A stretch of 41,005 nt of DNA from Pirellulales bacterium. GTDB taxonomy: Bacteria > Planctomycetota > Planctomycetia > Pirellulales > JAICIG01. Location of the stretch: positions 1 through 41,005 of the forward strand of contig DATLUO010000173.1 in assembly GCA_035533075.1 (NCBI GenBank), read 5' to 3'. A program made the position numbers and the translations under genes. This document shows positions 35,161-40,887 of this stretch, one piece after another; the first letter of the stretch is position 1; each line of letters begins with the position of its first letter. The notes under the pieces are model-generated. The model worked only from the letters and a program-made list of their open reading frames with translations, did no database searches and was not told the DNA's origin.

Positions 35161-36833
35161 GGACGTGACCGCCTTCCCGCACTACGCAGCTTGAGCATAT
35201 AGCGCATCCTGTTCATGTTCAATCCGGTGCTCGACGAAGTCGTGCCAGTCGCCGTTGAGGTATAATGCGCGGAGGTGAAGCATGGCTGGCGCACCTTCCA
35301 AGCTCCAACGCATGCCAGTGCATGCCATACGATCCTTGACAACGTGACCGCAGGCACCTTCGGCCACGCCACTGCCGATGGGATACCCGGCGGCCAGATA
35401 CTCGTTGTATCGCATGTGCCGCCGGTTGTTCGTGTAGTAGGTGATGGTCGCCGTGAGGCGTTTGAGTTTTTCGCCCGTCAGGTGATGGGTCGTAATCAGC
35501 TTCCGGAATGAGCGGATGACCGTGCCGACGCGGCCTTCCAAGATCGTCCGCAGGTAGCGTTCGACAAACCGCTTTGCCTCGTCGCTGTTTTCGGGGTGAA
35601 AACATTCGGCCGCTTGCCGAAGCCGCTTCATCACGTGGTAAATGTCCAAGATTCCCACGGCCCGCCTCAGCCAGTCCTCCTGCAGTTCCCAAAATTGTTT
35701 TTCGCCGTCCAGCAAGCAGATCAGTTGTTTGTTCTTGCCTGGGTTGCGCGCGTGACATTCGACAGCCAACTCGGCGAACAGGTAAGTCGGGCCGTGCGTT
35801 AACAGGCCCTTCTTCGAGTCGTCGCCCGGCCGCGTCATTTTCGCCCAGACGTGCTTGTGCTTTGGAGCGGGCCGATCCTTCGCGCGCCGTTTGCGAAGCA
35901 GTTCGTCAAGGATCTCGTCGCTGGTACGGACGAACGGATCGATCGTGTAAATGGCCCCCACGTAGGCCATTTGGTACTTTTGGGCGCCCTCCCCTTTGCT
36001 GCCGCGAGAGGGGACGCGGTGCTGCTCCTTGGGATCTAAAGAACGATCTAAAGAACGCCGCATGGGGACCGATGTGCCATCCGCAGTGACCACCAGAAGC
36101 GGGCCTTCCTCACGTGCCGGCGGCATGGCTTGCGACGCGCGAAAGGAAGCCGCATGCTGCGCCATCTGGCGGCAATGCTCTTCAGCCGTATCGACGGAAA
36201 GCTTCGCGCGAACGCCCAACAGGGCGACCAGCGAATCAACCGAGTCGCGAAACGCATCCTTCACGCACATACGCTCGAGCCAATCCTCCAACACATACGA
36301 AATATCTCCCGCCGGGAGCCCCAACCGGGCGTCGAGCGGAACGTGTTTGATCTCTTGCGCTTCCCGCGTCCCATAGACATAACGCGAAATGTCAATCGGC
36401 CCGTAGATCGACCGATAACAACGCTTGTGCTGGCCCTTAAGACGCAAGAGAGTTTCACCCCCGCGTTCCAGATGCTTCCCTACATTCCCGTCCCCCTGAC
36501 GGGCCACGTGAGCCGTCAGGGCCATCAAGCCCATGTCCATCAATACCGTGAACAATTCACGCTCCACTTCGTGAATCGGCAACTCTTCGTCGAACGCCTG
36601 ATCGACCAACCTCTTCAATTTTGAAACCTGTTCCTCCACCTTGTGCAGGGCGTCTTCCTTTGTGATCATGGCTCGGGTCTCCTGTGCAAAGATTACCAGC
36701 CAAGCCAAGTGCTAGCACAACGGCTCGGCTCTTGACGTAGAATCCTATGCACGAAGGCCACTTTTGTCTGCTAGCACCATTCGTAAGTCCTTTAACACAA
36801 AGCTTTCTAAAACGCGGAAAGGCGGTCACGTCC
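35161..36833. mobile_element. ISKra4-family insertion sequence
   Basis: About 1.67 kb with terminal inverted repeats 35161-35180 (GGACGTGACCGCCTTCCCGC) and 36814-36833, matching 19 of 20 as reverse complements. It holds one transposase gene that nearly reaches the left end. I find no clear target duplication (flanks GCAGCGTG and TAAGCCAC), so exact ends may be off by a few bases or the duplication has decayed. The intact transposase suggests a fairly recent insertion. Confidence 0.85.
35182..36669 (-). CDS. ISKra4-family transposase
   Basis: 495 aa from ATG 36669 with AGGAG ten bases upstream. The frame opens 13 codons earlier without support. DDE-type residues are likely in LLVVTADGTSVPMRR (near 193), LICLLDGEKQFWELQ (near 320) and GYPIGSGVAEGACGHVVKDR (near 433), the last being diagnostic for ISKra4 transposases. 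It appears full-length and uninterrupted. The stop lies two bases from the left inverted repeat. Confidence 0.93.
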   Translation of the reverse strand: MITKEDALHKVEEQVSKLKRLVDQAFDEELPIHEVERELFTVLMDMGLMALTAHVARQGDGNVGKHLERGGETLLRLKGQHKRCYRSIYGPIDISRYVYGTREAQEIKHVPLDARLGLPAGDISYVLEDWLERMCVKDAFRDSVDSLVALLGVRAKLSVDTAEEHCRQMAQHAASFRASQAMPPAREEGPLLVVTADGTSVPMRRSLDRSLDPKEQHRVPSRGSKGEGAQKYQMAYVGAIYTIDPFVRTSDEILDELLRKRRAKDRPAPKHKHVWAKMTRPGDDSKKGLLTHGPTYLFAELAVECHARNPGKNKQLICLLDGEKQFWELQEDWLRRAVGILDIYHVMKRLRQAAECFHPENSDEAKRFVERYLRTILEGRVGTVIRSFRKLITTHHLTGEKLKRLTATITYYTNNRRHMRYNEYLAAGYPIGSGVAEGACGHVVKDRMACTGMRWSLEGAPAMLHLRALYLNGDWHDFVEHRIEHEQDALYAQAA

Positions 36834-36934: not shown

Positions 36935-38005
36935 TCAACTGGGAGATCCCCCGACCGGCTTACTCCGCTGCCTCGCGCGGCGAGCGTACAGCCATGCACC
37001 GCATGCTAACGCAACGAGCAGCCAAAAATACGAGCGGTCAAACGGGTACAGGCGCCGCGACCGAGATGGCGGCGCATCAGGAATCCCAAAAGCTGTTAGA
37101 GTGAACTGGCTATCGTCGACATCGCCGCGCACCACCCTCATGAATTCAACCTCTGTAAATCGCGGGTTGGCGTTCTTAGAACCCGACAAGATCGTCTCCG
37201 TGCGTACAGACTTCGGCACAACCGCCCCGTCCTGCAGGCGCTCGCACTTGACTAGGCCTTTTCGGACAAACCTGACCTTGCTCCCGGGGCGAATGTCGAA
37301 TGAGATCTCGTACTCGCGCACCGCGAACTCCAGCGAGGGGTCCAGCACGGCGCGCGCCGCGCGCTTGTTGGGGCTCTCTGGAAATGCGAGGTCGAGCTCG
37401 TAGCAGTCACGCGCTTCACGGGACACGATATGGACCTTGAACCGCGTCTGCGGGTCGTCTAGGCAAGCCGGAATCGAAAGATCAAATATTTGGAGCGCAG
37501 CGTTGACGAATGGGTCGACGTTCACAGCGATGCCCGCATTGACCTGCTCGCGCCGCGCAGCGTCGGTTGATCGGTCGAGTGAGGCAACCTCGTAAGGGCC
37601 GTTTGGGTCCGCGCGCCGTAGGTGAAAGCCGATCGCTGGGGCGCTACTTACGACGAGCGAACGCTCCCTGCCGGCATCAGATGGTGATGCACCGTCTTGG
37701 ACTAGCTGCCGCGATTTCCCTTTTGCGTACATCGCGCCGACTAGTTCCTCGACTTTGCCATCCGTGTCCGTCTTTGAACAACGGAACTCGCAACGGATGT
37801 TTGCGGTCGCCTCGTTCAGCCTCGCAGCATGCTTGCGGTACTCGACAAGAAATCGCGCCGTAGAATCGTCCGCGCCGTCCGAATCGCGCGCACGGACTTG
37901 CGACAGGCCCGCTAGACATGCCAGAAAAAAAACGAGAGCAGCGCATGGGATACTTGACCGCACCAACGGCATCCATGCGCCACCCTTGAACGAGTCCGGA
38001 CTCAT
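36935..38005 (-). CDS. Exported hypothetical protein with C-terminal membrane helix
   Basis: About 356 aa. ATG 38005 has GGAGG at a 6-base distance; ATG 37972 (MPLVRSSIP) would give a shorter n-region. A signal peptide (CAALVFFLACLAGLSQVRA) precedes an extracytoplasmic beta-rich domain, loosely like planctomycete outer-membrane lipoprotein-sorting (LolA-like) proteins: NEATANIRCEFRCSKTD, VGAMYAKGKSRQL, FTEVEFMRVVRGDVDDSQFT. One C-terminal helix (FWLLVALACGAWLYARRA) follows. It lies downstream of the cysteine-rich peptide gene. Function unknown. Confidence 0.7.
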   Translation of the reverse strand: MSPDSFKGGAWMPLVRSSIPCAALVFFLACLAGLSQVRARDSDGADDSTARFLVEYRKHAARLNEATANIRCEFRCSKTDTDGKVEELVGAMYAKGKSRQLVQDGASPSDAGRERSLVVSSAPAIGFHLRRADPNGPYEVASLDRSTDAARREQVNAGIAVNVDPFVNAALQIFDLSIPACLDDPQTRFKVHIVSREARDCYELDLAFPESPNKRAARAVLDPSLEFAVREYEISFDIRPGSKVRFVRKGLVKCERLQDGAVVPKSVRTETILSGSKNANPRFTEVEFMRVVRGDVDDSQFTLTAFGIPDAPPSRSRRLYPFDRSYFWLLVALACGAWLYARRARQRSKPVGGSPS

Positions 38006-38118
38006 CATCCTCCTCCGCCGGTGCGACCGCCACAGTCTCCCAGAGGATTGACCCTCCGCATGGTACGGTTCTCGCACGCTGCTGTGTAGGCTGTCACGGT
38101 GCGATGGGCGCCGAAAGG

Positions 38119-38379
38119 TTAGCATCCGATGCCCCCCGCAATACATCCCGCCGATCCGCCGCTGGTTACACAGCAAAGGTACCCAATGCAGTTCGAGCAG
38201 GAGCCGCCGCCGCTGTAGCAGTTATGGAAGTATTCGGTCTCCACATCACAGCAGTCCAGTGCGCAGTTCTCGGCGGTCTGAGCCAGTGCCTCACGGACAT
38301 GTACGACCGTCGCGCAACTGAACAAGAGCACGAGAACCACGGACGCGCAAAGCGAAAGCCCTTTCGCAAACATTTTCAT
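38119..38379 (-). CDS. Cysteine-rich exported peptide
   Basis: 86 aa. ATG 38379 is preceded by GAGGAG at 6 bases, which decides the start over 38397. A hydrophobic leader (LSLCASVVLVLLFSCATVV) ends in HVREALAQ. The mature part of about 51 residues has ten cysteines, as DCC, LCC and single Cys, and ends in GGSAGCIAGGIGC. The REALA segment before the cysteine-rich core recalls the NVEALA leader peptides of Bacteroidota, also often found beside DUF1573 genes; this likeness is only an inference. It could be a disulfide-rich secreted or surface peptide. Confidence 0.7.
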   Translation of the reverse strand: MKMFAKGLSLCASVVLVLLFSCATVVHVREALAQTAENCALDCCDVETEYFHNCYSGGGSCSNCIGYLCCVTSGGSAGCIAGGIGC

Positions 38380-38459
38380 AACATTCTCCTCATTCATGGT
38401 GATCAGCCCCTTGTGTCCACTCGCTCGTCAGCGCGAGCCTCCGACACGCGCGGCTGGCG

Positions 38460-38984
38460 TCACAACGCTCGAGCCGCGTCGGTCGGATCCGCGAAAAACA
38501 ACAGCGACGCAGTCAGCGCGGCCTCGCCGTCACGGTCAGTCCACACCGTAATCCCCGTCCTCCCGACGCGAAGCGCCTTTTTCTTGATCACAACCGGAAA
38601 GCTAGTCGACTCGCCAGGATCAACAACAAGCGGAAAACCCGTCGCCGCGGCGCACGGGCAGCCGCTCGCGGCGCCGAGTAGCCTCACCGGCTGATCGCTG
38701 CAGTTATACACGCGAAAGGACTGTCGCACTTCCCGTTCCGGAGGCGAGTGAGGGTCGATCGCGACAGCCACCCGTGAGGGCACAAGGATAATTCGGCGCC
38801 CGCCCAGGATCTCGAATGCGGCTTCGCAAGATCCGAAGCGCACCAAGCCCCATGCGGCAACCGCACCCGCTGCAGTAAGCAACAGCCCTAACCATATTAG
38901 CACGGCAGGTCGGCGAACGCGCCAACGTGGGCGACTACTGCATGGTTCGCCTTTCGTTAGTGGATTCGTGATTATGTTGGTCAT
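38460..38984 (-). CDS. DUF1573-like membrane-anchored protein, second copy
   Basis: 174 aa from ATG 38984 (GTG 38993 possible). An N-terminal membrane helix (AVLIWLGLLLTAAGAVAAWG) is followed by an Ig-like DUF1573/ASH-type domain: REVRQSFRVYNCSDQPVRLL, GAASGCPCAAAT with the family's (S/G)CxC, and VDPGESTSFPVVI. It anchors in the membrane and faces outward. It is the paralogue of the gene at 39165. The pair flanks a tiny coupled frame. Function unknown. Confidence 0.75.
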   Translation of the reverse strand: MTNIITNPLTKGEPCSSRPRWRVRRPAVLIWLGLLLTAAGAVAAWGLVRFGSCEAAFEILGGRRIILVPSRVAVAIDPHSPPEREVRQSFRVYNCSDQPVRLLGAASGCPCAAATGFPLVVDPGESTSFPVVIKKKALRVGRTGITVWTDRDGEAALTASLLFFADPTDAARAL

Positions 38985-39066
38985 TAGGCCCACCGATTAA
39001 GCAGTCGTCTATTTGTAAGCGGAGCGTCGCTGCGCTCCTCAAACGCTTCAAGGCATAATTGGAGTC

Positions 39067-39168
39067 TCACCTCTCGCGGCTCCTTTTCGCCCGAGCGGTC
39101 GCCAGCACGGCGGCCGCGCACGCAAACCAGCAACCTAGCGTCCTGAGCGCGTGTTTTGCTCGCCTCAT
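39067..39168 (-). CDS. 33-aa peptide translationally coupled to DUF1573
   Basis: Short frame starting in the stop codon of the DUF1573 gene (ATGA at 39168-39165). The product MRRAKHALRTLGCWFACAAA, then VLATARAKRSRER, has a basic start and an Ala-rich hydrophobic stretch like a signal or leader peptide, with a basic end. The ATGA overlap is the main evidence that it is real. It could be a small membrane peptide or only a translational relay to the next gene. Confidence 0.35.
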   Translation of the reverse strand: MRRAKHALRTLGCWFACAAAVLATARAKRSRER

Positions 39169-39716
39169 CGTACCACCTCCTGCGATCGCGAAATGCGGTC
39201 AACGTTTCGCGAATGCCCTGGTTCCGCAACCACCTGCACCGCGACGCTGCCAACGAACCGTTCCTTTCCGAACGCGTCGAAACATTGAAACTCCGGACAT
39301 AGCCCGCCGACGAATTCAGGGTCGTCGGAAAGGTCGATTCTCGCCGTCGCGTGCATGGTGCCGTGCGGTGCGATTCGCACGTTGGCAAGCTCGACGGTCA
39401 GGCAAGGGCAGCTTGTCGGAACACGCGAAATCTCGATCCACGAATCGCAACCGTTGGTGAATCGTAGCCGCGCTGCCGCACGGCCGCCCGCCACGACGGT
39501 GCCGAGATCGACCGACGCCGAAGCGCCTTCAGCGATGAGATCCCCGACTGGGTACCCAACACCTTGCGCCCGCTCATCGCCGATCGAAGGGCGAGCCAAC
39601 GTCCGCGTTGCTACCACTGGTATAAGGCAGGCAAGCCCAAGGCCGGCGATACCGATGCCGGCCAAACGAATCAGCCAACGTCGCCATTTCATCCAGGGGG
39701 GCCTTGCTTCGTCCAT
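39165..39716 (-). CDS. DUF1573-like membrane-anchored protein, first copy
   Basis: 183 aa from ATG 39716, or 175 aa from ATG 39692. An N-terminal helix (IRLAGIGIAGLGLACLIPVV) precedes a DUF1573 domain: ASVDLGTVVAGGRAAARLRF, RVPTSCPCLTVEL with the SCxC motif, and IAPHGTMHATARIDL. The 39716 start has GAGG at nine bases and overlaps the sigma gene by 28 bases. The 39692 start overlaps the sigma stop in ATGA. Either way translation is linked to the sigma frame. Confidence 0.82.
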   Translation of the reverse strand: MDEARPPWMKWRRWLIRLAGIGIAGLGLACLIPVVATRTLARPSIGDERAQGVGYPVGDLIAEGASASVDLGTVVAGGRAAARLRFTNGCDSWIEISRVPTSCPCLTVELANVRIAPHGTMHATARIDLSDDPEFVGGLCPEFQCFDAFGKERFVGSVAVQVVAEPGHSRNVDRISRSQEVVR

Positions 39717-40585
39717 CGGATTCGACCTCGTTCGTCCACAGTGACCCCGCCGCAGTCTGGCGTCCGGCCGTCCTGCATCGCCTCTATTAACCTATACGGA
39801 ATGGCCTTACACTTCCGCTCCATTTTTTGTCGGATTCGCCAGACCCGGCCCGACCTATTGTTTGTTTGTGTGTGTGTGTGGGGGGGGGGGGGCAAGTCAT
39901 GCCCACCGTTGGTAGCACGTGCTTTGGGAGCGAGCCCGCGGGCTTCCAGTTCGGGACCGAGCTTTTTTCCCCCACGCGAGCGATGCGTGTAGACGGCGGA
40001 GAGGGAGATGCCAAGCTCCTTGGCGAGTTCGGCCGCCGGCGCGATGCCGCCTGGGGAGCGGGCATCCGCCAGCAGAACAGCTCGCTCATGGGACGAAAGA
40101 CGCTCATCCATCGCTTTCAGTATTTCGGGCCGAATGTCCGTAGCGTCCGTGGCAGCGTCTTCGATGGCGACGTCCGCGTGCGGGTCCGGCAGGGCCTCCT
40201 GCCAATCGTCGTTGGCCGCCGTCGCGCGATCGCAGTTTTTGTGCCACGGCGCGCCAAGCTCGTCGAGCGCCAGGTGGTCGGCAATCGTCCAGAGCCAGCC
40301 CTTGAGCGTGCCTTTTCCCGTATCGAACGCCGCGCGGCGCTCCCAGGCATGCTCGATGGCCGAGATGGCGATTTGGTCAGCCGCGTCCTGCGACAGTGAC
40401 GGGCCGTATTTCCGCCATAGCGTTGACGCGAGTTTGGCATGCGCCCACCGCAGGGCCGCGCCCACAAGCCGCACGTTGCCGGCGCGCCATCGCTCGCCTG
40501 TTAGCCGTGCGGCAGCACGGCCATTGCGAGCAACCCTGACGCGCTCCGATGAGGCAGCCCAATGGGCCGAAATAACGCCATCCAT
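39689..40585 (-). CDS. ECF-like RNA polymerase sigma factor with tract-encoded tail
   Basis: 298 aa from ATG 40585, preceded by GGAGG at seven bases; the frame upstream of this is unsupported. Region 2 is DAADQIAISAIEHAWERRAA to GTLKGWLWTIADHLALDELG; region 4 is LSSHERAVLLADA to LAKELGISLSAVYTHRSRGG. The DNA-binding core ends near residue 225. A (TG)7-G13 tract (39867-39892) then encodes PPPPHTHT, and a 67-residue tail runs to the overlap with the DUF1573 gene. The tail keeps G/C-rich third positions, so it looks coding. It could also begin as a separate peptide at MERKCKAIP. A one-base change in the tract would alter the tail. No anti-sigma gene is seen. Confidence 0.82.
   Translation of the reverse strand: MDGVISAHWAASSERVRVARNGRAAARLTGERWRAGNVRLVGAALRWAHAKLASTLWRKYGPSLSQDAADQIAISAIEHAWERRAAFDTGKGTLKGWLWTIADHLALDELGAPWHKNCDRATAANDDWQEALPDPHADVAIEDAATDATDIRPEILKAMDERLSSHERAVLLADARSPGGIAPAAELAKELGISLSAVYTHRSRGGKKLGPELEARGLAPKARATNGGHDLPPPPHTHTQTNNRSGRVWRIRQKMERKCKAIPYRLIEAMQDGRTPDCGGVTVDERGRIRWTKQGPPG
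39867..39892. repeat. (TG)7-G13 simple-sequence tract in the sigma gene
   Basis: Seven TG units run directly into thirteen G. Such tracts slip during replication. Reading the minus strand with C13 gives the 67-aa tail joined to the DUF1573 gene. C12 gives a 34-aa tail ending at 39787. C11 or C14 gives a tail of about 11-12 aa ending at a TAG near 39856. Homopolymers are also prone to sequencing error. Confidence 0.9.
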
Positions 40586-40887
40586 CACGGATCCTCCGCA
40601 TTCAGTCGTGAAGGGCGAAGCACCTGGCCGTCGCAGGCTCGTTGATCGCGCGGCAACGACGTAACAATTCGCTCGTGAAATGGGGCCGTGGATCCACCAC
40701 GCGAACCTCACGGCATGGCCGTCATCCTAATCTTCGCGCCGCGGGTGTCAAGGGTTCCGGCCCGTGCGGCTTGGCCGGAAGGCAGGCAAGTGAGGGGCGC
40801 TCCGGTTCGCAAGTCTCGTGGCGGCCGCGGAATCCCGCCGGGCCGGGACTCCGCGAGAACCACGCGGTCGGTTATCATGCGTTGTGA
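40586..40887. promoter_or_regulatory. Divergent intergenic region with hairpin
   Basis: 302 bases between the sigma gene and the divergent GT39-like gene, so it should contain both promoters. A near-perfect hairpin at 40826-40855 (CGCGGAATCCCG / CGGGACTCCGCG, one mismatch, 6-base loop) stands out, about 33 bases before the plus-strand start. It may be an operator or another dispersed palindrome. No clear promoter boxes seen. Confidence 0.4.

Follow-up and report, generated by a model that had tools for sequence, protein, structure and literature searches.

A Compound Microsatellite Late in an ECF-Like Sigma Factor Gene of a Pirellulales Bacterium: A Candidate Switch of the C-Terminal Tail and of Coupling to the Next Gene

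Results and Discussion

The window analyzed here is a stretch of 41,005 nucleotides from a Pirellulales bacterium, and positions are those of the whole stretch. On its minus strand, an ECF-like sigma factor gene carries a compound microsatellite past region 4, and this slippage-prone repeat may act as a switch of the C-terminal tail of the protein and of the coupling to the next gene. We propose this reading tentatively and give it slightly less than an even chance. The tract, the reading frames behind it, the paralogues, and the rarity of such repeats in the genome are observed directly. The strongest fact on the tract is that a paralogous sigma gene carries a (CA)20 array at the homologous site.

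The Sigma Gene and Its Operon

The sigma frame starts at GTG 40588 or ATG 40585 and, read from the GTG, stays open across the tract as far as TGA 39691-39689, giving a protein of 299 aa in the present phase (39689..40588, minus strand). Its assignment is based on profiles and on two paralogues. Matches were obtained with TIGR02937 (E=1e-6; 28.4 bits against a cut-off of 42.9), Sigma70_r2 (E=7.8e-5; 22.8 against 24), and Sigma70_r4_2 (E=1.2e-3; 18.9 against 25.7). Several sigma models agree, and the ECF-like identity is consistent across models but weak, all scores being under the curated cut-offs. No PDB match to the sigma profile was found, and the AlphaFold model computed without an alignment had a mean pLDDT of 46 and is not interpretable. 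A consensus scan upstream of the gene located a promoter-like TTGACA-16-TAGGAT (40724..40751, minus strand), one site being found against 0.1 expected in shuffles, and its TTGACA aligns in both paralogues.

The sigma gene appears to head a run of genes for exported proteins, all on the minus strand: two DUF1573-like, one Cys-rich, and one more. The first DUF1573-like gene (39165..39692; PF07610, E=5e-7) starts at ATG 39692, with an alternative start at 39716, and overlaps the sigma stop; the second (38460..38993) matches PF07610 below the cut-off (E=0.0017). An ORF at 38119..38397 encodes a Cys-rich protein of 92 aa with an N-terminal hydrophobic stretch, and another at 36935..38176 a protein that is probably exported and has a hydrophobic segment at its C-terminus. 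The start of the latter is uncertain, as its longest ORF runs into the Cys-rich gene. Neither protein matched a family in Pfam or NCBIfam. The operon is adjoined, downstream of the gene for the probably exported protein, by an ISKra4-family transposase gene (window 35182-36708). The DUF1559 and DUF1573 genes of the genome agree with the earlier description of the DNA as planctomycete.

The Repeat Tract

Read directly on the plus strand, the tract consists of (TG)7 at 39867-39880 followed by G12 at 39881-39892; on the coding strand this is C13 followed by (AC)6A (39867..39892, minus strand). To reach 13 bases (39880-39892), the G run must include the final G of the TG array, and the label (TG)7-G13 given in the sequence-only reading thus counts one base twice, as common to both parts. 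With this adjustment the tract is confirmed where that reading had placed it, within the sigma coding region and past region 4. C13 plus (AC)6 inside the sigma frame is long enough to slip at a high rate.

To set these repeats against the composition of the genome, a first-order Markov model was derived from about 75 kb of it, with expectations given per genome and for both strands. Arrays of at least seven TG units are expected 0.018 times and arrays of 20 units effectively never, so that the array is exceptional; runs of at least 13 G are expected 0.33 times, and the G run by itself is not far above composition. Across the 8.54 Mb of the genome (296 contigs), at least seven TG/CA units in a row occur at only two loci, the window tract and the (CA)20 array of the paralogue on contig C169. 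Runs of at least 11 G are likewise limited to two places, the window tract and a G13 on contig C229 (C229:8653-8665), and runs of at least nine G are rarer than expected (9 places, one of them at a contig edge, against about 76).

Among the 56 other genomes of the order, 53 have no array of at least seven TG units, and the remaining three have one place each, none with this sigma. In contrast, 37 of 57 genomes of the order have runs of at least 11 G; such runs are common, and the G run alone is therefore weak evidence. Two genomes of the order, G001 and G401, have more than 200 G11 matches each, and a relative has a run of 65 G inside a contig (G421:C30:81279-81343); such runs, whether real or artefacts, are widespread in the order. 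In a further genome of the order, contig G420:C114 ends in G24 directly before a sigma-like frame (L107:1501-1524), and this could be a real tract or a contig-edge artefact.

Close relatives carrying the sigma gene were found neither in the genome of the same family, nor in 392 genomes of the phylum, where the best other matches (about 1e-13) are distant sigma genes, nor in the GTDB r220 contigs. A scan of GTDB contigs for (TG)7 plus a short motif proved too unspecific, with at least 115 stretches, and none of the loci examined encodes this sigma factor.

Three Phases and Their Predicted Products

In the present phase (C13) the tail has 77 aa after GLAPK, and the stop of the 299-aa protein falls on the DUF1573 start (ATGA). 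With C12 the predicted tail is 44 aa (...TIGRAGSGESDKKWSGSVRPFRIG) and the protein 266 aa, its stop lying 97 nt before the DUF1573 start; with C14 they are 22 aa (...NKQ) and 244 aa, with the stop 165 nt before that start. Changes in the number of AC units yield the same three phase classes as changes in the C run. The tails of 67, 34, and about 12 residues predicted by the sequence-only reading were recovered when counted after GHDL, and correspond to 77, 44, and 22 after GLAPK. All three proteins keep regions 2 and 4, as in the layout of C-terminal phase variation. No phase switches the sigma factor off, because both regions are upstream of the tract.

If the strands slipped and mispaired during replication, the C run would gain or lose 1 base, or the AC run 2, and the ribosome would thereby enter one of three frames past region 4. 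One of these would end at once (...NKQ), one would give the tail in ...TIGRAGSGESDKKWSGSVRPFRIG, and the present one reaches the DUF1573 start. The sigma domains would always be intact, and such a switch would adjust the tail and how translation of the next gene is coupled, not turn the sigma factor on or off. Length variation, an effect of the tail, and an effect of coupling are the parts of this explanation that we infer.

As had been claimed, only the present phase meets the DUF1573 start, the sigma TGA overlapping ATG 39692, and the 28-base overlap named as the other option corresponds to an in-frame earlier ATG at 39716. Inspection of the sequence before ATG 39692 gave no clear Shine-Dalgarno, which makes coupling to an upstream frame plausible. 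Even so, a small ORF (MQDGRTPDCGG...GPPG; 39689..39778, minus strand) lies within the present sigma frame, with its own ATG at 39778, and ends on the same ATGA; DUF1573 could therefore be coupled without read-through of the sigma gene. This ORF is kept open in the paralogue on contig C91 and not in C169. The claim that slippage alters both the tail and the coupling thus stands in part: the predicted tails differ and the stop would move by 97 or 165 nt, but a change in DUF1573 translation may be bypassed by this built-in alternative.

Sigma Paralogues and a Second Candidate Gene

The genome has two paralogues of the sigma gene, on contigs C91 (78% aa identity) and C169 (63%). The (CA)20 of C169 (C169:15615-15654; L048:5616-5655 in G000:C169) is at the position homologous to the window tract. 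The C169 frame has an HT-repeat tail and stops at once after the array (...HTHTPQ); with (CA)19 or (CA)22 it would read ...TTIAPGVSGESEKNGRAR. C91 has no tract, only a degenerate CA-poor stretch at that position, and ends ...TIGRAGSGESDKNGAEV; the tail of the 266-aa phase of the window gene resembles it. The chance of a second array landing at the homologous sigma position is about 7e-6, and the two homologous arrays therefore share ancestry or a common cause. Past the tract, the window copy, C91, and C169 read three different frames. As this is expected by chance in 6/27, it is no evidence by itself. The frame TI...SGES(D/E)K can be reached in all three copies, and each tract allows any of the three frames.

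The proposal of a phase-variable switch is borne up by the slip-prone tract, the three tails, the single coupled phase, and the paralogue with (CA)20, but the frame of the tail differs among the paralogues and C91 manages without a tract. The (CA)20 paralogue and the lack of such arrays elsewhere in the genome lend real support to a contingency locus, though this support is still circumstantial.

The G13 on contig C229 lies within a DUF1573 coding sequence (L047:8653-8665; G000:C229), where 13 G keep a frame of 462 aa; with 12 or 14 G the C-terminal third would be cut or rewritten, which makes this gene a second candidate for phase variation. We regard it as unlikely, though worth stating, that the paralogues of the sigma operon use (CA)20, C13(AC)6, and the G13 of C229 as a contingency set that would diversify the sigma tail as well as expression of the secreted Cys-rich and DUF1573 proteins. 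The C229 cluster resembles that of the window, and among its other products are a Cys-rich protein and a C39 peptidase-like protein (L047:5804-6562). The C91 copy is flanked by another C39-peptidase-like protein (L049:1458-2132) and a PMT-like membrane protein. In both clusters the C39-peptidase-like proteins are near Cys-rich or TAT-signal proteins, and they may process secreted peptides.

Constraint on the Tail and on the DNA past the Tract

The paralogue comparison, with codon positions counted from the frame of 40711, separates the sigma core from what follows the tract. In the core, 41 of 90 differences from C91 and 76 of 181 from C169 are at third positions, as expected of a protein under selection. 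Past the tract, the differences from C91 fall 1/1/1 by codon position in the tail, and in the leader 5 of 7 fall on first positions. Compared with C91, the window copy has one additional A, which disrupts the frame of the tail. The post-tract frame thus appears free of protein-level constraint, which weakens the case for a function of the tail without excluding it. Within the gene, conservation is lowest in the DNA next to the tract, with 68% identity to C91 and 43% to C169, against 86% and 73% in the core, a pattern that we count in favour of the switch.

Given the lack of protein-level constraint on the tail, a tolerated microsatellite stays a serious rival. A CA-rich stretch already present in the ancestor of the paralogues would have expanded by slippage at the unconstrained 3' end of the sigma gene and would persist because sigma is harmed in none of the phases, and its length may vary inconsequentially. 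This explains most of the facts too, and we consider it a real possibility, if not the probable one. The paralogue tails differ in frame and sequence, the stretch in C91 is degenerate and CA-poor, no phase touches the sigma regions, and shared descent accounts for the homologous position of the arrays. Neutral expansion, however, should not be confined to one site, and the 8.54 Mb hold no other array, intergenic DNA included. Decay should also have removed the array, which is still present in two of three copies that have diverged to 63-78% aa identity.

The post-tract DNA (39690..39864, minus strand) was delimited by the paralogue alignment; it is common to the three paralogous loci and may serve the genes downstream as promoter or leader. 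Identity to C91 is 92-96%, higher than in the core, although the genes downstream there are unrelated, and the element occurs in exact form only at these three loci. Conservation as DNA, in a promoter or leader, accounts for the region better than conservation of a protein tail. If the repeat, with its alternating purines and pyrimidines and its G run, is kept as DNA beside a promoter in this element, its length could tune transcription of the DUF1573 operon as a spacer, and the frame effect would be a by-product. We find this rather improbable, since no sigma-70-type promoter was found inside the element and since, compared with C169, it is about 69-76% identical and no better conserved than the core. 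The element was also tried as a wider regulon motif, with fewer hits elsewhere than in the control. As RNA, the region was less stable than shuffles (z=+1.9), and a consensus of the three sequences had an unfavourable covariation term.

In draft assemblies, homopolymers and dinucleotide arrays are prone to errors. The repeat may exist with a true length, and hence a present frame, that differs from the assembly; a C10 run stands at the start of one contig of this genome, and the contig of a relative mentioned above ends in G24. We think such an error very improbable: independent arrays at two paralogous loci secure the existence of the repeat, and a wrong length would mean that another phase is the current one but would leave the possible phases as they are. 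Slippage of RNA polymerase or of the ribosome on the 13-base homopolymer within the coding region, which would make several tails from one DNA length with no genetic switch, we hardly credit at all, as there is no stable RNA structure around the run and C169 carries a dinucleotide array, which is not a usual slippery site.

Comparison with Known Systems

If real, the sigma tract would be a variant of C-terminal phase variation, comparable to the C tract of Mga in Group A Streptococcus (S. pyogenes), where a C8 tract was shown to vary, revert, and change target expression (PMC10330708). There too a C tract lies late in a regulator gene and gives C-terminal length variants or read-through into the neighbour, with the N-terminal part intact (PMC10330708). 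In contrast, Mga is not a sigma factor, its tract variation was shown whereas that of the sigma tract is predicted, and the sigma tract is compound, with a dinucleotide array in a paralogue. In Helicobacter canadensis, changes in a homopolymer near the 3' end alter the C-terminus while expression continues; population-level variation supported those repeats, the paper mentions no sigma factor, and it found no dinucleotide-mediated candidate (PMC2823697). Classic contingency loci share the long simple repeats in a reading frame and the three phases, but mostly turn surface genes on or off (PMC11868660), whereas the sigma regions here are intact in all phases.

ECF sigma factors with an extended C-terminus, such as ECF56 SigG1, also have a sigma2-sigma4 core followed by extra sequence, but the SigG1 extension is a SnoaL_2 domain (PMC7730460), whereas the sigma tail here is short and low-complexity and its frame is not conserved. 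A comparative microsatellite study reported a C2/C3 length difference in sigM between the genomes of M. tuberculosis and M. bovis (PMC1501019); this is an indel in a short run rather than a long tract. Among open-licence papers, we found none on a phase-variable sigma factor.

Most known cases of phase variation by repeats concern surface genes in bacteria adapted to a host. To our knowledge, no other sigma factor is phase-variable by C-terminal switching, and the present one, if true, would be the first. It would be a random tail switch in a transcription factor of a large-genome bacterium, repeated at a sister locus. A recent review of contingency loci covers neither sigma factors nor planctomycetes (PMC11868660), and the finding, if true, would extend repeat phase variation to sigma factors and to a group that this review does not mention.
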